IMG/VR virus record: IMGVR_UViG_3300021425_000092
Location: 1 to 36,373 of that record
Direction: 5' to 3' (one strand)
From: a virus
Length of the DNA: 36,373 nucleotides
Position 1 is the stretch's first letter; the number at the start of each line of letters is the position of its first letter. The notes below the pieces were generated by a model. It had not been told where the DNA came from. It did no database searches and was given only the letters and a program-made list of their open reading frames with translations. The translations under genes were made by a program, and so were the position numbers. Positions 3,504-11,051 of this stretch are shown here, in pieces.

Positions 3504-3532
3504 ATTATAACCTATAAATTATTATTTGTCTA
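3504..3532 (-). promoter_or_regulatory. Sigma70-like promoter, leaderless geometry
   Basis: On the minus strand TAGACA (3527-3532), 17 nt, TATAAT (3504-3509), then 7 nt to the ATG at 3496. It uses the same -35, spacer and -10 as the promoter at 16187-16215. The -35 box overlaps the last codons of the upstream oxygenase gene. Confidence 0.7.
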
Positions 3533-4156
3533 TATGAAATTTATCCATCCTGTAATTGCATACTTTGTTTCTTTCAATGGAGGATTTCCTCTATGAACAT
3601 GAGTAAACCCTGCTGGCCAACATACGAATCTACCTTTGACTGGCGGAACTCTAACCCCTTGATATAAGAATTCTGTTTCACCTCCGTCTTCAACGTCATT
3701 CAGATAAACCATCCATGCAAGTAAACTTGTTCTATCGTATTGAGTAGTGCCTCCTTCAAAATGCCAATTGTGATACCCTTCACTAGGGCGAGTCTTTTGC
3801 ATTTTCATTTGTGCATTGTATAAACCTTGATATACACCAGAGTCTATGATTGGATATCTTATCTGCCATGAATCAATCACATCATTTTGAACCCAATTGC
3901 CTATATCTTGTAGGGGTCTATGTATCATTGGGTCCATTTCTGTCCAATAGATTGCAGTATCAGACCTCTGATGAAAATCAGAACCTGTGTCTTTACGTGT
4001 ATGACACAACCCTCTCTCCTCTAAATTATCGAACTGATGAATACATGCATCGCATATGTCATCATCTAATACGTTGTCTAATATTCGTATGTGGTCTCCA
4101 AAAGAATCGTCCCAAGGCAACTCAGGTCGATTTTGTATTTGTTCTTTATCAGTCAT
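3530..4156 (-). CDS. 2OG-Fe(II) oxygenase, prolyl-hydroxylase type
   Basis: A 208-residue protein with the double-stranded beta-helix motifs of the prolyl 4-hydroxylase-like 2OG-Fe(II) family. The iron site reads H132-x-E134 (WHFE), with distal histidine H186 or H188 (FTHVHRG) and a basic residue near the end (TKYAITGW) for 2-oxoglutarate. The glutamate in place of the usual aspartate is notable but occurs in related oxygenases. The motif GGETEF before the last strands and GRFVCWPAGFTH are typical. It uses O2 and 2-oxoglutarate to hydroxylate an unknown substrate in the cytoplasm (no signal peptide). It is fourth in a row of oxygenase genes; its start overlaps the end of the small zinc-protein gene by 8 nt. 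Confidence 0.85.
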   Translation of the reverse strand: MTDKEQIQNRPELPWDDSFGDHIRILDNVLDDDICDACIHQFDNLEERGLCHTRKDTGSDFHQRSDTAIYWTEMDPMIHRPLQDIGNWVQNDVIDSWQIRYPIIDSGVYQGLYNAQMKMQKTRPSEGYHNWHFEGGTTQYDRTSLLAWMVYLNDVEDGGETEFLYQGVRVPPVKGRFVCWPAGFTHVHRGNPPLKETKYAITGWINFI

Positions 4157-4307
4157 TCTTTTTCTCTTGGTAATATTTTAAACTGCATTCAGGACCACAA
4201 AATGGTTTTGCTGGTGAACCTTCTTCTATTGATGTATGATATTTAACTTCAGAGACTTCTATCTCCTTTTTACATACATAACATTTTACAGTTTGGGGTC
4301 TAAACAT
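4149..4307 (-). CDS. Small zinc-binding (treble-clef-like) protein
   Basis: 52 residues with two cysteine knuckles, CYVC near the N-terminus and FCGPEC near the C-terminus. The arrangement resembles small treble-clef zinc proteins. The start at MFRPQTVKCYVC is preferred over an upstream ATG in frame because GGGAGA sits just before it and the gene then overlaps the end of the upstream oxygenase by 8 nt, as its neighbours do. It lies between two 2OG oxygenase genes and may be a partner or nucleic-acid-binding adaptor for them. That role is inferred from position only. Confidence 0.75.
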   Translation of the reverse strand: MFRPQTVKCYVCKKEIEVSEVKYHTSIEEGSPAKPFCGPECSLKYYQEKKND

Positions 4308-4857
4308 TTTCTCTCCCAAACCAGACTGCAAATACCCATCGTTCACCATGATAAACAGGTTCTACTGAATGCCACACTTCAGTTGAATTATTGAATGCAA
4401 CCATCGTCCCCATATTTCTGTCAATTGTAATTCCTGGTTCTACAGTAAATTTGCCTCCCAAATAGTTATCATTGAGTGTAAAGATTGCTGTAGCATAATC
4501 GTTATCATCTGCTTGGTCTTTATGGGGCGGAAAACATGTATCAGTTCGATATACAATCACCTGAGCATAATTGACAATGTCAAAGTCTATGTGATTGGGA
4601 ACAACCTCTTGTATGACTTCAAGTGCTTTATCTAACTCATCACCCTTGAGAACTGACATTTCTTTACCATCGTGTGAATCGTATTTGAACGATGCATTGT
4701 CATCTATAGGTGTTGAAGGTGTTACATCATTGCCTTGTATATGGTCAACTTCTACCTTTTCTATGTTTGTGTGAATTTCTCTGAGTAGTTTACAACCTAA
4801 CTCATTGATTACATTTGGGGTTATCCAAATCTTATTGTGGTCTCTCTCAGTTCTCAT
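4300..4857 (-). CDS. 2OG-Fe(II) oxygenase
   Basis: A 185-residue protein with a complete 2OG-Fe(II) site: H112-x-D114 (PHKDQ), distal H163 (VWHSVEPV), and R173 (GERWVFAVWFG) for 2-oxoglutarate, in the order and spacing of prolyl-hydroxylase-like enzymes. The strand GGKFTVEPG and the GTMVAF turn fit the fold. The N-terminal half is more variable and probably sets the substrate. Its start overlaps the stop of the previous oxygenase (ATGA), so the two are translated together. The substrate is unknown. No signal peptide was seen, so it is cytoplasmic. Confidence 0.88.
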   Translation of the reverse strand: MRTERDHNKIWITPNVINELGCKLLREIHTNIEKVEVDHIQGNDVTPSTPIDDNASFKYDSHDGKEMSVLKGDELDKALEVIQEVVPNHIDFDIVNYAQVIVYRTDTCFPPHKDQADDNDYATAIFTLNDNYLGGKFTVEPGITIDRNMGTMVAFNNSTEVWHSVEPVYHGERWVFAVWFGRENV

Positions 4858-5534
4858 TTTGGTTTATAAAACGTCACCTGAGTGAATCTCCAGTCGTCCT
4901 TGTACTTAGAATAGTCATTGATATATGCACCATGCATACAGTTACCAGGAAAGATTACAGCACGATTGAATTTATGTTCTATAACTTTCTCTATTTTGAA
5001 TCTCTCTTCGACTGGATATAGAAGATTGATGTTCTCATCGTTAGTAACCCATTCCCCACCATAAACAGCAGTACCTCCGTCTTCTACTTTGTCCATATAG
5101 ACAAGAAAGTTTAACACTGATGCTTCATCAGGTGTTCCTAATTGTGAGTCGATGTGAGGGTAATGCTGTAACTCATTTGATACTTCTTTTATAGGTTGAA
5201 AACAATTGAACTCGTAAATCATATCCCATGAGTAGTCACCTTTCCACCAATACTTTCGACATATATCTAATATGCGATTATGCTCATTAAAATATTCTCT
5301 AGTCGGATGTCCGTTCTTATCTACGATTCTACAATCATAATAGTCAACACCATTTCTTGTTTGACCTGCTTCTGCATTATATTTCCAGAGTGGATATGAC
5401 CTTGATGTTATCATATCATAAATGTCCTCTGCGTTCTCATAAAAGTCATCGATGTATATAACTCCATCTTTAAATTCAGGTTTCAATACTGGACTTAATC
5501 TATAGAGTTCATCATTTGAGTATACTTTATTCAT
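4854..5534 (-). CDS. 2OG-Fe(II) oxygenase
   Basis: A 226-residue protein with H127-x-D129 (YPHIDSQ), distal H201 (GNCMHGAY) and R216 (WRFTQVTFY): an intact 2OG-Fe(II) triad plus co-substrate arginine. The segment LNFLVYMDKVEDGGTAVY matches the strand-loop of the fold, where GG precedes the next strand. The N-terminal 50 residues contain the IYIDDFYENAEDIY pattern often seen at the start of such phage and bacterial oxygenases. It starts 8 nt inside the upstream oxygenase gene. The substrate is unknown; its family differs from the other three in the cluster, so these are not simple tandem duplicates. Confidence 0.87.
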   Translation of the reverse strand: MNKVYSNDELYRLSPVLKPEFKDGVIYIDDFYENAEDIYDMITSRSYPLWKYNAEAGQTRNGVDYYDCRIVDKNGHPTREYFNEHNRILDICRKYWWKGDYSWDMIYEFNCFQPIKEVSNELQHYPHIDSQLGTPDEASVLNFLVYMDKVEDGGTAVYGGEWVTNDENINLLYPVEERFKIEKVIEHKFNRAVIFPGNCMHGAYINDYSKYKDDWRFTQVTFYKPK

Positions 5535-6303
5535 TTGGTTCCTGTTTTAAAAAATGATAACTCATATTATCACCATCATCGTATGACCCTAAATCTAATT
5601 TGTGATTGAGGTTGAATGATATTGAGTATCTTGTGTAAGGTTTGTCTTTGAGTTGTGACTTAGGAACATAATGCAAAATATAACTCGGCCAAAGTAAAAA
5701 GTCTCCGTTATGTGGAAAGAATGCCATTTCGCATTGTGATGAACCTGATGTGCTACCCATAGTTGTCATTTGGTCATCAACACAAACCTCTTGACTCATA
5801 GTTCCGTGAGAAAATACTGCATTGTGATTCGGGTTGATAAATCTGATTGGGGTTGAGTCTTCATCAACATCAACATAGAGTGTTCCTGAAACTAAAGAGT
5901 TTACATGGTCATGAACTGCATGTGAGTGTTCCGTTCCATATCTATTGAACCATGAGAAGAAATGAATGTCATGCCTTGATAGACCATCAACATGATTATT
6001 GAATTGACGACTGATAAAATCTATGTAAGTGTCTTTGAGTTGATTGACAAAAGAATTGAACCATGGTAATCCAAGTGCCTCTTGTCTTACATCTTGGTCA
6101 AAATACGTTGTGTAGTTGTTTAGTTCGTTATCACCTTCTTTTGCTTTGACTTTATCGATGAGTCTATCCATATCTGCTTTGACTTCATTGAGATTAAGAT
6201 TTAGTTGACCATGAAAAAATGGTGTAGGAAACAAGTGATATGTTGTTCCTCTTGCTGGTTGATAATGATTTTGTAAACTTTGATTAGTCTGTATTGGTCT
6301 CAT
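5527..6303 (-). CDS. 2OG-Fe(II) oxygenase-like, HxH variant
   Basis: A 258-residue protein like the putative 2OG-Fe(II) oxygenases common in marine T4-like phages. It has a FPTPFF start motif, a tryptophan/asparagine segment (FSWFNRYGTEHSHAVHDHVNS) and LSG-type strand (LVSGTLYVDVD), GDFLLWPSYILHYV and a final RYSISFNLN. The iron ligands are read as H131 and H133 (H-D-H) with distal H211; R225 would bind 2-oxoglutarate. The HxH form in place of HxD is seen in this subfamily as I recall it. It is first of the four-oxygenase row and overlaps the end of the lipoprotein gene by 20 nt, linking the oxygenases to the lysis-type genes. Confidence 0.8.
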   Translation of the reverse strand: MRPIQTNQSLQNHYQPARGTTYHLFPTPFFHGQLNLNLNEVKADMDRLIDKVKAKEGDNELNNYTTYFDQDVRQEALGLPWFNSFVNQLKDTYIDFISRQFNNHVDGLSRHDIHFFSWFNRYGTEHSHAVHDHVNSLVSGTLYVDVDEDSTPIRFINPNHNAVFSHGTMSQEVCVDDQMTTMGSTSGSSQCEMAFFPHNGDFLLWPSYILHYVPKSQLKDKPYTRYSISFNLNHKLDLGSYDDGDNMSYHFLKQEPNE

Positions 6304-6829
6304 TCTTTTTCACTTCAATCCCGACTCCCTTATCTCCATTCGGCATTGTTACATCACGATAATAAATTATTACTTCACCTAGTTCTCTTATATATCTACG
6401 AACTTCTTGGTTGTTTATCGTCATCTTCTTATAGTCACCTATTGTGGTTCCTACGAAAACGACATCACCATTGTTTTGTGCTTTCATGTCATCTAAGAAT
6501 CTATCGAGATATGTATAACCGACTGGCCAATCTGGATTCTCTCTATCTTCTAGTTCACATTGTTTTGGTCTTTTGAGTTCTTCTTCACCCTTTTCATTAT
6601 ATCTTTTAGGGTCGAATGAGATTGATTTCTTACATGGGTTGGTAATTCTTGCCTCTGATACAACATACCATTTTGGAGTTTGTAGAGATATCTCTCTCGG
6701 TAATGTTGGTTGCATGATATCCAGTTGAACTGGTTTTGTAACAACTTCTAATTTCTTTGTGCCTAATAATGAGCAACCACTAATCGTTACTGCTAGTGCT
6801 GTCAAGATTACTAATTTCTTTAGTATCAT
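6284..6829 (-). CDS. Lipoprotein, probable outer-membrane spanin-like subunit
   Basis: A 181-residue lipoprotein. The signal peptide is MILKKLVILTALAVTISGC with lipobox ISGC and lipidated C19. The mature part has short extended segments with many prolines (DIMQPTLPREISL, KWYVV) and then a conserved globular region. The gene begins inside the preceding membrane/coiled-coil gene (50-nt overlap in a different frame), the arrangement of two-component spanin genes (Rz/Rz1), which fuse inner and outer membranes at the end of lysis in Gram-negative hosts. The size is larger than classical Rz1, so the o-spanin role is an inference from order and topology. Confidence 0.65.
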   Translation of the reverse strand: MILKKLVILTALAVTISGCSLLGTKKLEVVTKPVQLDIMQPTLPREISLQTPKWYVVSEARITNPCKKSISFDPKRYNEKGEEELKRPKQCELEDRENPDWPVGYTYLDRFLDDMKAQNNGDVVFVGTTIGDYKKMTINNQEVRRYIRELGEVIIYYRDVTMPNGDKGVGIEVKKNETNTD

Positions 6830-7163
6830 TCTCTAACTCCCTTAAAACGTCATCTGTACCTTTGTTGAATCTCAATTCCATCAAACCTGGTTTTGCAACT
6901 GCAAGTTTTTCGAAGTTATGTTTTGATAAGATTTGTAGATATTTGTCTTTATCTGCTTCGATTTGTGCATTTCTTCTGGATAGATTCTGTAATGCTTTGC
7001 CTTGTTTCTCAAAGTTCTCTTGCATTACTCTCATTGTTTCTTTCTGTTCCTCTACTGCATAATTTAATTTTAGATTATTCTCAGTGAGTGTTTGATTTTC
7101 GTTATACAACCAAAATGATGTTCCTCCAAGAACAAGTATGATTGCTATAAAAAACTGATACAT
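6780..7163 (-). CDS. Inner-membrane coiled-coil protein, probable i-spanin
   Basis: 127 residues: one N-terminal membrane helix (about residues 3-19, YQFFIAIILVLGGTSFWLY) followed by a long periplasmic helical stretch (residues 25-85) with heptad-like Leu/Ile/Asn spacing. Then comes a segment KPGLMELRFNKGTDDVLREL of a kind I recall from spanin-like proteins of marine phages. Topology and the overlap with a lipoprotein gene match the Rz family: the coiled coil spans the periplasm and meets the lipoprotein. Its ATG overlaps the stop of the cytochrome gene (TAATG). No endolysin or clear holin was seen next to it in this window. Confidence 0.65.
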   Translation of the reverse strand: MYQFFIAIILVLGGTSFWLYNENQTLTENNLKLNYAVEEQKETMRVMQENFEKQGKALQNLSRRNAQIEADKDKYLQILSKHNFEKLAVAKPGLMELRFNKGTDDVLRELENDTKEISNLDSTSSND

Positions 7164-7603
7164 TACAATTCAACCTCAATAAATTTACCAATAGTCTCAA
7201 TGTCTTGCTCTGATAACATGCCTGCTTGTGCCCACATGGTTGATGACATTGCTCCTACTTCTCCTCTGTTCTTATATGTAGTCAATCTGTCGATGATATA
7301 ATCTGCTGATTGACCTGCAAGTGCTGGAAATACTGCCATGCCTTCTCCATTCTGACCATGACATGCGGCACAACCTGCCCATAAACTTCTGATTGAAGAG
7401 AATTCATCTTGTGATGCGAGTTCATTTTTAATACGTTCTATTTCTGAGGCAGTGCCATTTATTCTGACATACTCTTCGTAACATTCACCTGTGCATGAAT
7501 GACCACCACTAACTCCAGAGTATTCTAAATCTGGATATACCTTAAAACCAAAGAACAAACTTATTGCGAGTGTTCCTAATAATGCCATTCCTAATTCTTT
7601 CAT
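7163..7603 (-). CDS. Membrane-anchored c-type cytochrome
   Basis: A 146-residue protein with an uncleaved or signal-anchor hydrophobic helix (residues 5-21) and a C-terminal class I cytochrome c domain. The heme motif is CAACH (78-82), followed by GQNGEGMAVFPALAGQ, and the axial methionine is probably M119 or M123 in the segment before LSEQDIETIGKFI. This pattern matches the c4/c553-type domain of bacterial electron carriers. Residues 25-70 hold two further cysteines (C37, C41). It would act in the periplasm after heme attachment by the host cytochrome-maturation system. A c-type cytochrome in a phage is unusual; flanking overlaps (TGATATG before, TAATG after) show that it belongs to this phage operon and is not a contaminant. 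Confidence 0.9.
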   Translation of the reverse strand: MKELGMALLGTLAISLFFGFKVYPDLEYSGVSGGHSCTGECYEEYVRINGTASEIERIKNELASQDEFSSIRSLWAGCAACHGQNGEGMAVFPALAGQSADYIIDRLTTYKNRGEVGAMSSTMWAQAGMLSEQDIETIGKFIEVEL

Positions 7604-7604
7604 A

Positions 7605-7772
7605 TCAATTTATGTAATTTCTCCTGTTTCTTAAGGCAGTTCTTAACTTACCATTTTTGCTTCTGTAGGGTTCAGTAATACATTTAGTACCTTCTAGACT
7701 CTTTGCAAGTAAAAGGTAAATACTAAACAATGCAATTAGAGATATTCCACTTAAAAATAATAATTCAATCAT
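7605..7772 (-). CDS. Small 55-residue single-pass membrane protein
   Basis: One N-terminal membrane helix (about residues 3-22, ELLFLSGISLIALFSIYLLL) and a basic tail (KNGKLRTALRNRRNYIN). This is N-out or N-in single-pass topology with a positively charged cytoplasmic tail by the positive-inside rule. GAGG upstream and two consecutive ATG codons (7775 or 7772) overlap the end of the preceding gene; the second was chosen. The stop lies 2 nt before the cytochrome start, so the two are translated together. Size and position would allow a holin-like or cytochrome-partner role, but there is no direct evidence. Confidence 0.7.
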   Translation of the reverse strand: MIELLFLSGISLIALFSIYLLLAKSLEGTKCITEPYRSKNGKLRTALRNRRNYIN

Positions 7773-7989
7773 CATAATCCTCTATAATATAATTTAGTCC
7801 TGCAGAACTTCTGTACTCTACTATTTTATCTTCATCTGTTCGAAATTTCAAGTGCTTTTCTTTCTGAACCAGCACTTTTTTAACGATATACGACCTATCG
7901 TCTGCATCTCCCCATTCTTTATTGAATGATACAGTTATCTTATACCTTGTTAAAAACAAGGACTTTATCCATGTCCATATGTTATTCAT
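7765..7989 (-). CDS. Hypothetical 74-residue protein
   Basis: Short protein with an N-terminal amphipathic stretch (NNIWTWIKSLFL), then a compact beta-rich sequence (YKITVSFNKEWGDADDRSYIVKKVLVQKEKHLKF). I recall similar small proteins in marine myoviruses, without known function. A late box ACTAAATA ends 5 nt before the ATG and no Shine-Dalgarno is present, so the transcript should be leaderless. It heads the late unit that runs on through the 55-residue membrane protein, cytochrome c, the spanin-like pair and probably the oxygenases. Confidence 0.8.
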   Translation of the reverse strand: MNNIWTWIKSLFLTRYKITVSFNKEWGDADDRSYIVKKVLVQKEKHLKFRTDEDKIVEYRSSAGLNYIIEDYDD

Positions 7990-7994
7990 ACTTC

Positions 7995-8002
7995 TATTTA
8001 GT
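7995..8002 (-). promoter_or_regulatory. Late promoter box ACTAAATA
   Basis: The minus-strand octamer ACTAAATA is followed by GAAGT and then the ATG at 7989. The 5-nt spacing is identical to three CATAAATA boxes in the window. T4 late transcription starts about 6 nt after the box, so the mRNA would begin at the A of ATG. Confidence 0.65.
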
Positions 8003-9358: not shown

Positions 9359-9629
9359 AAGTTATATATCCGTCCTCTGATTTTCCTGTGTTAATTATAT
9401 GTCTTTGAAATACTTCTTCAAACTCTACGACTTCTGGTTCACCATTAGGTGCTTGTTCGATGCAATAGGGAAGAACTGCTCTTGCTTCAGACTTTTGAAA
9501 GTCTAAACCACATGTGAATATTCTGACTTCGCAAAATATTCTGTCAATCTGAGAGCATAGATGTTTCCATCTTTCACATTCTACATCTTGCTCTGGGATT
9601 GGCGGCAAATATACGTGAACCTTTCTCAT
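9351..9629 (-). CDS. Hypothetical 92-residue protein
   Basis: Not recognised. The sequence begins MRKVHVYLPPIPEQDVECERWKHL and has four to five cysteines in the first 55 residues (C18, C25, C33, C40, C56). These are spaced irregularly, so metal binding or disulfides are possible but unproven. There is no membrane segment. Its start overlaps the glutaredoxin stop (ATGA), which places it in the ribonucleotide-reductase operon; a redox partner role is conceivable from context. Confidence 0.7.
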   Translation of the reverse strand: MRKVHVYLPPIPEQDVECERWKHLCSQIDRIFCEVRIFTCGLDFQKSEARAVLPYCIEQAPNGEPEVVEFEEVFQRHIINTGKSEDGYITYD

Positions 9630-9856
9630 TGCATATCAGTCTTTACAAGTTCTTCTAATTCAGTGTAACCACCAATTTTGTTTCCATCAACTATAATTTG
9701 TGGAAATGTTCTTGCAGTTGGAAATGTTTCCATCATTTCTTCTCTTGTGAAATCAAATCCTAGAAGTTTATATTCATACTCTTCACCGATTCTTTCACAT
9801 AGTGCTTTTGCTTTGTCACAAAATGGACAATTATCTTTTCCGTATATTTCAATCAT
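9626..9856 (-). CDS. Glutaredoxin
   Basis: A 76-residue classic glutaredoxin with active site CPFC (residues 9-12 region, NCPFCDKAK), the cis-proline TFPQIIVDG and the GGYTEL end motif. It reduces the C-terminal cysteine pair of ribonucleotide reductase, using host glutathione. It sits downstream of nrdA and nrdB, separated from nrdB by a 33-residue gene with overlapping start and stop codons, so it is made with the enzyme it serves. Confidence 0.93.
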   Translation of the reverse strand: MIEIYGKDNCPFCDKAKALCERIGEEYEYKLLGFDFTREEMMETFPTARTFPQIIVDGNKIGGYTELEELVKTDMQ

Positions 9857-9954
9857 CTTGCTTTTAACTCCTCAACTTGTTTAGTTAGTTCTTTTAATCT
9901 CTCAAGTATCTCATCGAGTAGATTCTTAATATGGGTATTTGTAGGATGTCCCAT
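9853..9954 (-). CDS. 33-residue helical peptide between nrdB and glutaredoxin
   Basis: A very short gene whose ATG overlaps the nrdB stop (TAATG) and whose TGA overlaps the glutaredoxin ATG. The peptide is almost all helix, with leucines at heptad-like positions (NLLDEILERLKELTKQVEELKAR), i.e. a short coiled coil. Exact coupling on both sides argues that it is translated. It may oligomerise or bind a reductase subunit; no family was recognised. Confidence 0.6.
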   Translation of the reverse strand: MGHPTNTHIKNLLDEILERLKELTKQVEELKAR

Positions 9955-11051
9955 TACAATTTAAAGTCTGCAAATGTATCATCTGATACATCTTGTTTAA
10001 TACCACCTATGACATAAGATTCAATCTCAGTCTCTTGTGGTGCATTCTGAAGTCCTCTACTGTTGAACCAGTGTTGTGTCCATGGTAAAGGGTTATTTGC
10101 ACTAGAGATATCGTATATAGGATTGAGTCCTATTGCACGTAATCTCTTGTTTGCAATGAATTCTACATATTGACCTAGTAGAGGAACAGATAGACCAATC
10201 ATTGAACCATCTTTGAATAGATACTCTGCCCATTCCTTCTCTTGTGCAACTGCATCTTCATACATTGCATAGACTTCTTTCTCACAATCTCTCATAACCT
10301 TGTTCATCAACTTATCATTCTCATGGTTTTTATATGCCTTGAGTATATGTTGTGATACTGCAAGATGTTGTGCTTCGTCACGTGCAATGAATGATATAAT
10401 CTTTGCTGACCCTTCCATAACTTTGAGTTCACCAAATCCAAATGAACATGCAAATGAGACAAAGAAACGAATCCCTTCTAGGATATTGACTGATATAAGT
10501 GCAAGATATAATGCCTTATATAAATCGTAGTCTTCGACCTTGAGTCCTAATAACCTTCTTCGTCCCAATGCAATGAAATCATCGTATTTTTCTGTAACCA
10601 TTTCTGCTCTTTTGATGATTGCTGGTTCATCTATAATTGTATCAAATATATCACTAGGGTCTGCATAAACATTTTTTATAATATGAGTGTAAGACCTGCT
10701 ATGAATGGTCTCCATAAAGTCCCAAGTGATGATACAAGATTCAAGTTCAGGCAGAGTCACGAAAGGTAAAAATGCTATGGATGGTGCCCTACCTTGAACT
10801 GAATCTAAAAGTGTTTGATATCTTAAATTTGATGTGAAGATATGTTTTTGGGCATCTGTTAATGATTGGTAGTCTGCTCGGTCTTTCTGTAAAGATACTT
10901 CTTCAGGTCTCCAGAAAAACCCTAATTGCTTTTGTGTAAGTTTATCAAAGATTGGATATTTGAATTCATCAAATCTTTGAGTGTTTAGTTCTTCACCAAA
11001 GAACATCTTGTTCTTTCTAAAATCTACATTGCTCTTGTTAAATACCGTCAT
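9954..11051 (-). CDS. nrdB: Ribonucleotide reductase class Ia, small (radical) subunit
   Basis: A 365-residue protein with all features of class Ia R2. The first iron ligand is D83 (LLDSVQGR), then E114 and H117 in METIHSRSYTH, with the radical tyrosine Y121. The second half-site is RDEAQHL near residue 230, with a further glutamate earlier. The length is normal. It assembles the diiron-tyrosyl radical and delivers it to NrdA to make dNTPs for phage replication. Its ATG overlaps the stop of the 2OG oxygenase gene, and its stop overlaps the 33-residue gene. Confidence 0.97.
   Translation of the reverse strand: MTVFNKSNVDFRKNKMFFGEELNTQRFDEFKYPIFDKLTQKQLGFFWRPEEVSLQKDRADYQSLTDAQKHIFTSNLRYQTLLDSVQGRAPSIAFLPFVTLPELESCIITWDFMETIHSRSYTHIIKNVYADPSDIFDTIIDEPAIIKRAEMVTEKYDDFIALGRRRLLGLKVEDYDLYKALYLALISVNILEGIRFFVSFACSFGFGELKVMEGSAKIISFIARDEAQHLAVSQHILKAYKNHENDKLMNKVMRDCEKEVYAMYEDAVAQEKEWAEYLFKDGSMIGLSVPLLGQYVEFIANKRLRAIGLNPIYDISSANNPLPWTQHWFNSRGLQNAPQETEIESYVIGGIKQDVSDDTFADFKL

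Follow-up and report, generated by a model that had tools for sequence, protein, structure and literature searches.

What would a phage do with a cytochrome c, and is the gene that seems to encode one in this DNA genuine? The stretch analysed here (the window) is a 36,373-base IMG/VR record, for which an earlier note had proposed a phage-encoded periplasmic cytochrome c, placed beside spanin-like genes and perhaps maintaining the proton-motive force until lysis.

The NrdB protein of the window is 68% identical to that of Pelagibacter phage HTVC008M, and the NrdB and gp23 of its lineage are nearest to those of HTVC008M, Mosig and Melnitz. On larger contigs encoding the cytochrome, the major capsid proteins are nearest to those of Methylophilales phage Melnitz (66-68%) and HTVC008M (65-66%). 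From these NrdB and capsid matches we take the window to be a fragment of a T4-like marine myovirus near HTVC008M and Melnitz; among cultured phages, its nearest relatives have SAR11 and OM43 bacteria as hosts. Host assignment by MAG labels (Planctomycetaceae, Sphingobacteriales, Synechococcus and Verrucomicrobiales) was rejected: the labels are inconsistent with each other, and the contigs are read as misbinned viral ones.

The cytochrome gene and its product

The plus strand of 7163-7603 is stop-rich. The open reading frame lies on the minus strand and occupies exactly this interval, and its translation runs MKELGMALLGTLAISLFFGFKVYPDLEYSGVSGGHSCTGECYEEY...WAGCAACHGQNGEGMAVFPALAGQ...MSSTMWAQAGMLSEQDIETIGKFIEVEL. 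The features of the region are listed below in the order of the minus strand.

9954-11051, minus strand: NrdB, ribonucleotide reductase small subunit (HTVC008M match)
9857-9953, minus strand: gap between NrdB and glutaredoxin, the usual place of the cytochrome in relatives; here 97 nt with a small ORF and no cytochrome
9626-9856, minus strand: glutaredoxin (Grx), the usual downstream neighbour of the cytochrome in relatives
7995-8002 (read 8002-7995), minus strand: late-promoter-like element ACTAAATA, upstream of the genes for g74, m56, the cytochrome and the spanins
7765-7989, minus strand: g74, a 74-aa protein (comparison of relatives' loci)
7605-7775, minus strand: m56, a 56-aa single-TM peptide with an EGTK..PY tail (comparison of relatives' loci)
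7163-7603, minus strand: class I cytochrome c with one heme, 146 aa, membrane-anchored or exported (Pfam, PDB, model and alignment)
6780-7163, minus strand: i-spanin (Rz-like, phrog_739), right edge of the putative insertion
6284-6829, minus strand: o-spanin lipoprotein (Rz1-like, phrog_812)

The 146-residue product begins with a hydrophobic TM segment (residues 4-20), which is followed by a CX3C module (C37-C41), the heme motif CAACH (C78, C81 and H82), the stretches FPALAGQ and LSEQDIETIGKFI, and the axial methionine M123. It matches PF00034 (Cytochrom_C) above the gathering score (E=7.2e-8), and its best PDB sequence matches are Pseudomonas stutzeri c4 (1etp), a c-552 (1h1o), 8yts and c554 (2zzs). 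In alignment, M123 falls on the second-domain Met of P. stutzeri c4 and on the Met of 8yts. The AlphaFold model, of modest to moderate confidence (mean pLDDT 67.7, with residues 21-40 below 50), has the all-helical class I fold, with helices at residues 2-22, 41-49, 52-65, 69-82, 100-111, 121-128 and 132-145; its top PDB structure matches are c-type cytochromes only (c546/556, c554, c552 and c4). Family match, c4/c552/c554 matches and predicted fold agree, and the cytochrome reading of this ORF is borne out, on the minus strand. The gene resembles its neighbours in third-position GC (0.26).

Alignment of 71 distinct viral proteins reveals that C78, C81, H82 and M123 are invariant in all of them. 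M119 is replaced by Gln in one protein, for which reason M123 is taken as the axial ligand. A loss of CxxCH or of the axial Met in all relatives, named in the earlier note as grounds for abandoning a cytochrome, was looked for; both proved invariant. The gene is under purifying selection, with a median dN/dS of 0.21 (440 pairs). Together with the invariant heme ligands and the hundreds of viral homologues, this argues for a real gene and against a chance ORF.

Two kinds of N-terminus occur in the family. The window protein has an uncleaved-type anchor, in which no cleavage motif was found by eye; such anchors begin M[KR]ELG. A signal-peptide-like sequence replaces the anchor in L259, L293, L322, L325, L330, L348, L393 and other relatives, and both types join the rest of the protein at the same NLEY.G point, so that delivery to the periplasm is the feature conserved. 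Predicted signal anchors or signal peptides are present in the family, and the analysis supports an exported class I cytochrome c encoded by a phage, most likely an electron carrier.

The CX3C module, which sits between the anchor and the heme domain, is as invariant as the heme ligands; C37, G39, C41, Y42, Y45 and W75 are among the other residues conserved in all 71 proteins. Searches of Pfam and the PDB gave no match to it, and none of the cellular cytochromes compared was seen to have it, so that the protein may do something besides plain electron shuttling. Two identities for the module were rejected on reading the sequence: it is not a second heme site, since no His follows it (it is not CXnCH), nor is it CuA, the pattern of which is absent.

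Distribution, origin and genomic setting

Respiratory cytochromes had been described as abnormal cargo for a phage. This holds for cultured phages, among whose 50,697 records nothing but chance matches was found up to E=5; it does not hold for uncultured marine T4-like phages, in which the gene is common. Relatives were encoded by 265 stretches in one scan of viral contigs and by 482 in another, so that the suggested search in other marine phages yielded at least 482 IMG/VR contigs carrying the family, a count of contigs in which duplicate populations may be represented more than once. No PHROGs family matches the protein, no full-length relative was found in phage records or plasmids, and no phage cytochrome c family was found in the open-access literature searched.

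The viral heme domains form one clade (SH-aLRT 96) on a long stem, apart from the sampled cellular cytochromes. The closest cellular proteins are, weakly (support 80), gammaproteobacterial c554-like cytochromes. This type of cytochrome occurs in 217 of 274 gammaproteobacterial genomes versus 17 of 289 alphaproteobacterial ones, and the strongest alphaproteobacterial matches come from two small-genome orders. A phylogeny had been proposed as the means of finding the donor group; a domain of 76 columns cannot resolve it, the viral clade standing separate, and at most these columns point to an old, single acquisition.

When loci were collected by similarity to the cytochrome, its most frequent neighbours were NrdB, glutaredoxin or the two together, in some cases with a small membrane gene as well; the other neighbour groups are cupin/bacterioferritin, IscU, an epimerase and small membrane peptides. 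To avoid the bias of selecting loci by the cytochrome itself, the 80 nearest NrdB genes were fetched, giving 56 loci with at least 4.5 kb downstream, the window left out. The cytochrome is present in 13 of the 56, a lower bound for carriage because a 153-kb relative has it far from NrdB (near 127 kb of the contig, with NrdB at about 31 kb). All 13 have it with NrdB (or m56) on one side and Grx on the other. Nearly all 56 loci contain the spanin pair, with g74 beside or near the i-spanin gene and the cytochrome elsewhere; linkage to the spanins was seen in none of the 13 near relatives with the cytochrome and full flanking sequence. Two other relatives, of 140 and 151 kb, show no cytochrome. 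Large records have one copy or none, in differing places, and two copies were found in no record.

In the window alone are m56 and the cytochrome located between g74 and the i-spanin. Relatives have g74 at the i-spanin gene or close to it, and the left edge of the insertion is accordingly placed at g74. The m56 gene precedes the cytochrome in several relatives and elsewhere stands between NrdB and Grx by itself; the two seem to have moved together, in a one-off event in the window lineage, into the space before the spanins. The spanin-like pair that had been noticed after the cytochrome was confirmed as phrog_739 and phrog_812. The supposed coupling by overlapping codons stands on one side only: the i-spanin overlaps the cytochrome by one base (TAATG), but m56 is separated from it by a 1-nt gap and overlaps the gene before it. 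Directly after the spanins (3530-6303) the window has four 2OG-Fe(II) oxygenase-like genes in a row.

From the compared loci, the cytochrome is an optional, single-copy, mobile gene of putative auxiliary function. It has the attributes of an auxiliary metabolic gene: location on a phage genome, selection, sporadic occurrence among close relatives, and a predicted host-type function. No phage oxidase, bc1 or cytochrome maturation gene was identified beside it.

Several neighbouring genes deserve mention in their own right. Cupin and bacterioferritin-like genes adjoin the cytochrome, or an IscU-like gene precedes it, in L026, L050, L079 and L035; these are iron-handling genes on phage contigs, named from sequence. 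A peptide of about 57 aa with a single TM segment and a HPMKQ motif (the HPMKQ peptide) was found in 254 viral stretches; uncultured marine T4-like phages have it widely, yet it is absent from phage records, PHROGs and Pfam. It was rejected as an obligate partner: 38 of 80 loci have it beside the cytochrome, and it also occurs in many settings where the cytochrome is missing. Adjoining the HPMKQ gene are an ORF with a CHASE2 sensor (E=1.8e-30) and a class III adenylate/guanylate cyclase domain (Guanylate_cyc, E=8e-19) at L313:599-2431, and a cyclase domain (E=1.4e-19) at L270:82-693; CHASE2-like starts are found in L283 and L291 too. A cyclic-nucleotide signalling protein from a phage would be unusual. 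On the viral contigs L250 and L291, the HPMKQ gene has long ORFs with curlin-like repeats in its vicinity.

Expression and probable function

The window gene was said to be served by a late promoter. The exact T4-type motif TATAAATA is not enriched, and none occurs near the cytochrome; such a promoter was rejected, and the [AC]TAAATA class was put in its place. Six of 13 coding-strand sites of this class lie just upstream of starts, where 0.67 are expected, and one of these start-associated sites, ACTAAATA, sits just before g74 and upstream of the g74-m56-cytochrome-spanin run, which makes late expression in the window plausible. In none of the 41 NrdB-linked cytochrome loci was a late-type element found in the 400 nt upstream, where 5.75 would be expected by chance; there the cytochrome is presumably expressed together with the genes of nucleotide metabolism.

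Class I cytochromes c are single-electron carriers between periplasmic or membrane redox enzymes, and proteobacteria attach heme to c-type cytochromes via Ccm. Against this background the protein is probably an auxiliary electron carrier for the host periplasmic respiratory chain, loaded with heme by the host Ccm, much as cyanophage plastocyanin supplies a carrier. In most near carriers, in which it lies between nrdB and grx, the gene would presumably be cotranscribed with them. The product would be exported, with its N-terminus tethering it to the inner membrane or, in some relatives, a signal peptide releasing it, and would receive heme from the host cytochrome c maturation system. In the periplasm it may then carry electrons, with the bc1 complex as the most likely donor and the terminal oxidase as the acceptor, and keep up this flow in a cell whose own gene expression is shut off. 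Respiration, ATP and proton-motive force would thereby be sustained while phage DNA is made and particles are assembled. Heme loading, redox partners and respiratory role are what we infer from the predicted protein.

The invariant CX3C module suggests a different use, namely as a redox sensor, thiol oxidase or metal handler: electrons, or a metal such as copper, would pass between the CX3C pair and the heme domain, and the respiratory chain would be no more than the sink. The conservation of C37, G39, C41, Y42 and Y45 to the level of the heme ligands, the absence of the module from the cellular homologues compared, and neighbours such as glutaredoxin, bacterioferritin and IscU all favour this use. 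We nevertheless consider it unlikely, as the CX3C may be a mere structural disulfide, the neighbours vary by lineage, and glutaredoxin, IscU and bacterioferritin are cytoplasmic proteins that would not meet a periplasmic cytochrome.

It is improbable that the protein serves a host-specific pathway other than bc1 to oxidase, for instance methanol, sulfur or nitrogen oxidation. The nearest cellular domains are c4/c554-like, from gammaproteobacteria and the two small-genome alphaproteobacterial orders; c4/c552 proteins can serve several reductases, and Melnitz, a near capsid relative, infects methylotrophs. Against this, phages with differing neighbours carry the gene, and no pathway enzyme was seen travelling with it.

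A place in the lysis cassette, with the cytochrome holding or tuning the proton-motive force and so timing holin and spanin action, is very improbable: the window gene does have a small membrane peptide directly on one side and the i-spanin, with which it shares one base, on the other, and lies downstream of a late-type element, but all 13 near carriers with enough flank are NrdB-cytochrome-Grx with the spanins apart, 0 of the 41 NrdB-linked loci has the late-type element, and in other lineages the gene adjoins bacterioferritin, IscU or cupin. The spanin adjacency, being unique to the window, is unfit as evidence for such a role, and the earlier suggestion of a tie to lysis falls with it.

Relation to known systems

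The respiratory carrier that we favour has its closest parallel in cyanophage PetE and PTOX, which are likewise found in T4-like marine phages, sporadic and mobile, PetE and PTOX being located in a mobile cassette (PMC3037559); as with the cytochrome, a small electron-transport protein is involved. Plastocyanin differs in being a copper protein of cyanobacterial photosynthesis, whereas the viral protein is a heme c, presumably respiratory, from relatives of SAR11 and OM43 phages. Among cellular proteins, the anchor-plus-domain layout resembles that of cytochrome cy (CycM), and the proteobacterial c4/c552/c554 group shares the class I domain, the CxxCH and the distal Met, the viral sequence being closest to c4/c554. 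Both differ from the viral proteins, which form a clade of their own and have the invariant CX3C added.

Virus-associated electron transport has been reported in ocean viromes, as cbb3 oxidase subunit I (PMC3474794) and as norB/nirK (PMC8115048); these are oxidases or reductases, and the portions of the two reports consulted describe no c-type electron carrier family. A phage 5-aminolevulinate synthase has been proposed to keep heme-dependent respiration running in the infected cell (PMC11480375); it is an enzyme for a heme precursor and not a cytochrome.

There is a small chance that the family is something bolder, a phage-only set of two-centre redox proteins that join an invariant CX3C thiol or metal centre to a cytochrome c domain and with which phages rewire the flow of electrons in the periplasm of abundant ocean heterotrophs while infecting them. 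The favoured reading, that of an auxiliary carrier for the host respiratory chain, would itself mean that phages of ocean heterotrophs manipulate respiration with an electron carrier of their own, the counterpart of the photosynthetic carriers of cyanophages. The gene family, present on at least 482 viral contigs, has been missed by databases of cultured phages, and would provide a testable handle on how ATP and proton-motive force are maintained in infected heterotrophs.
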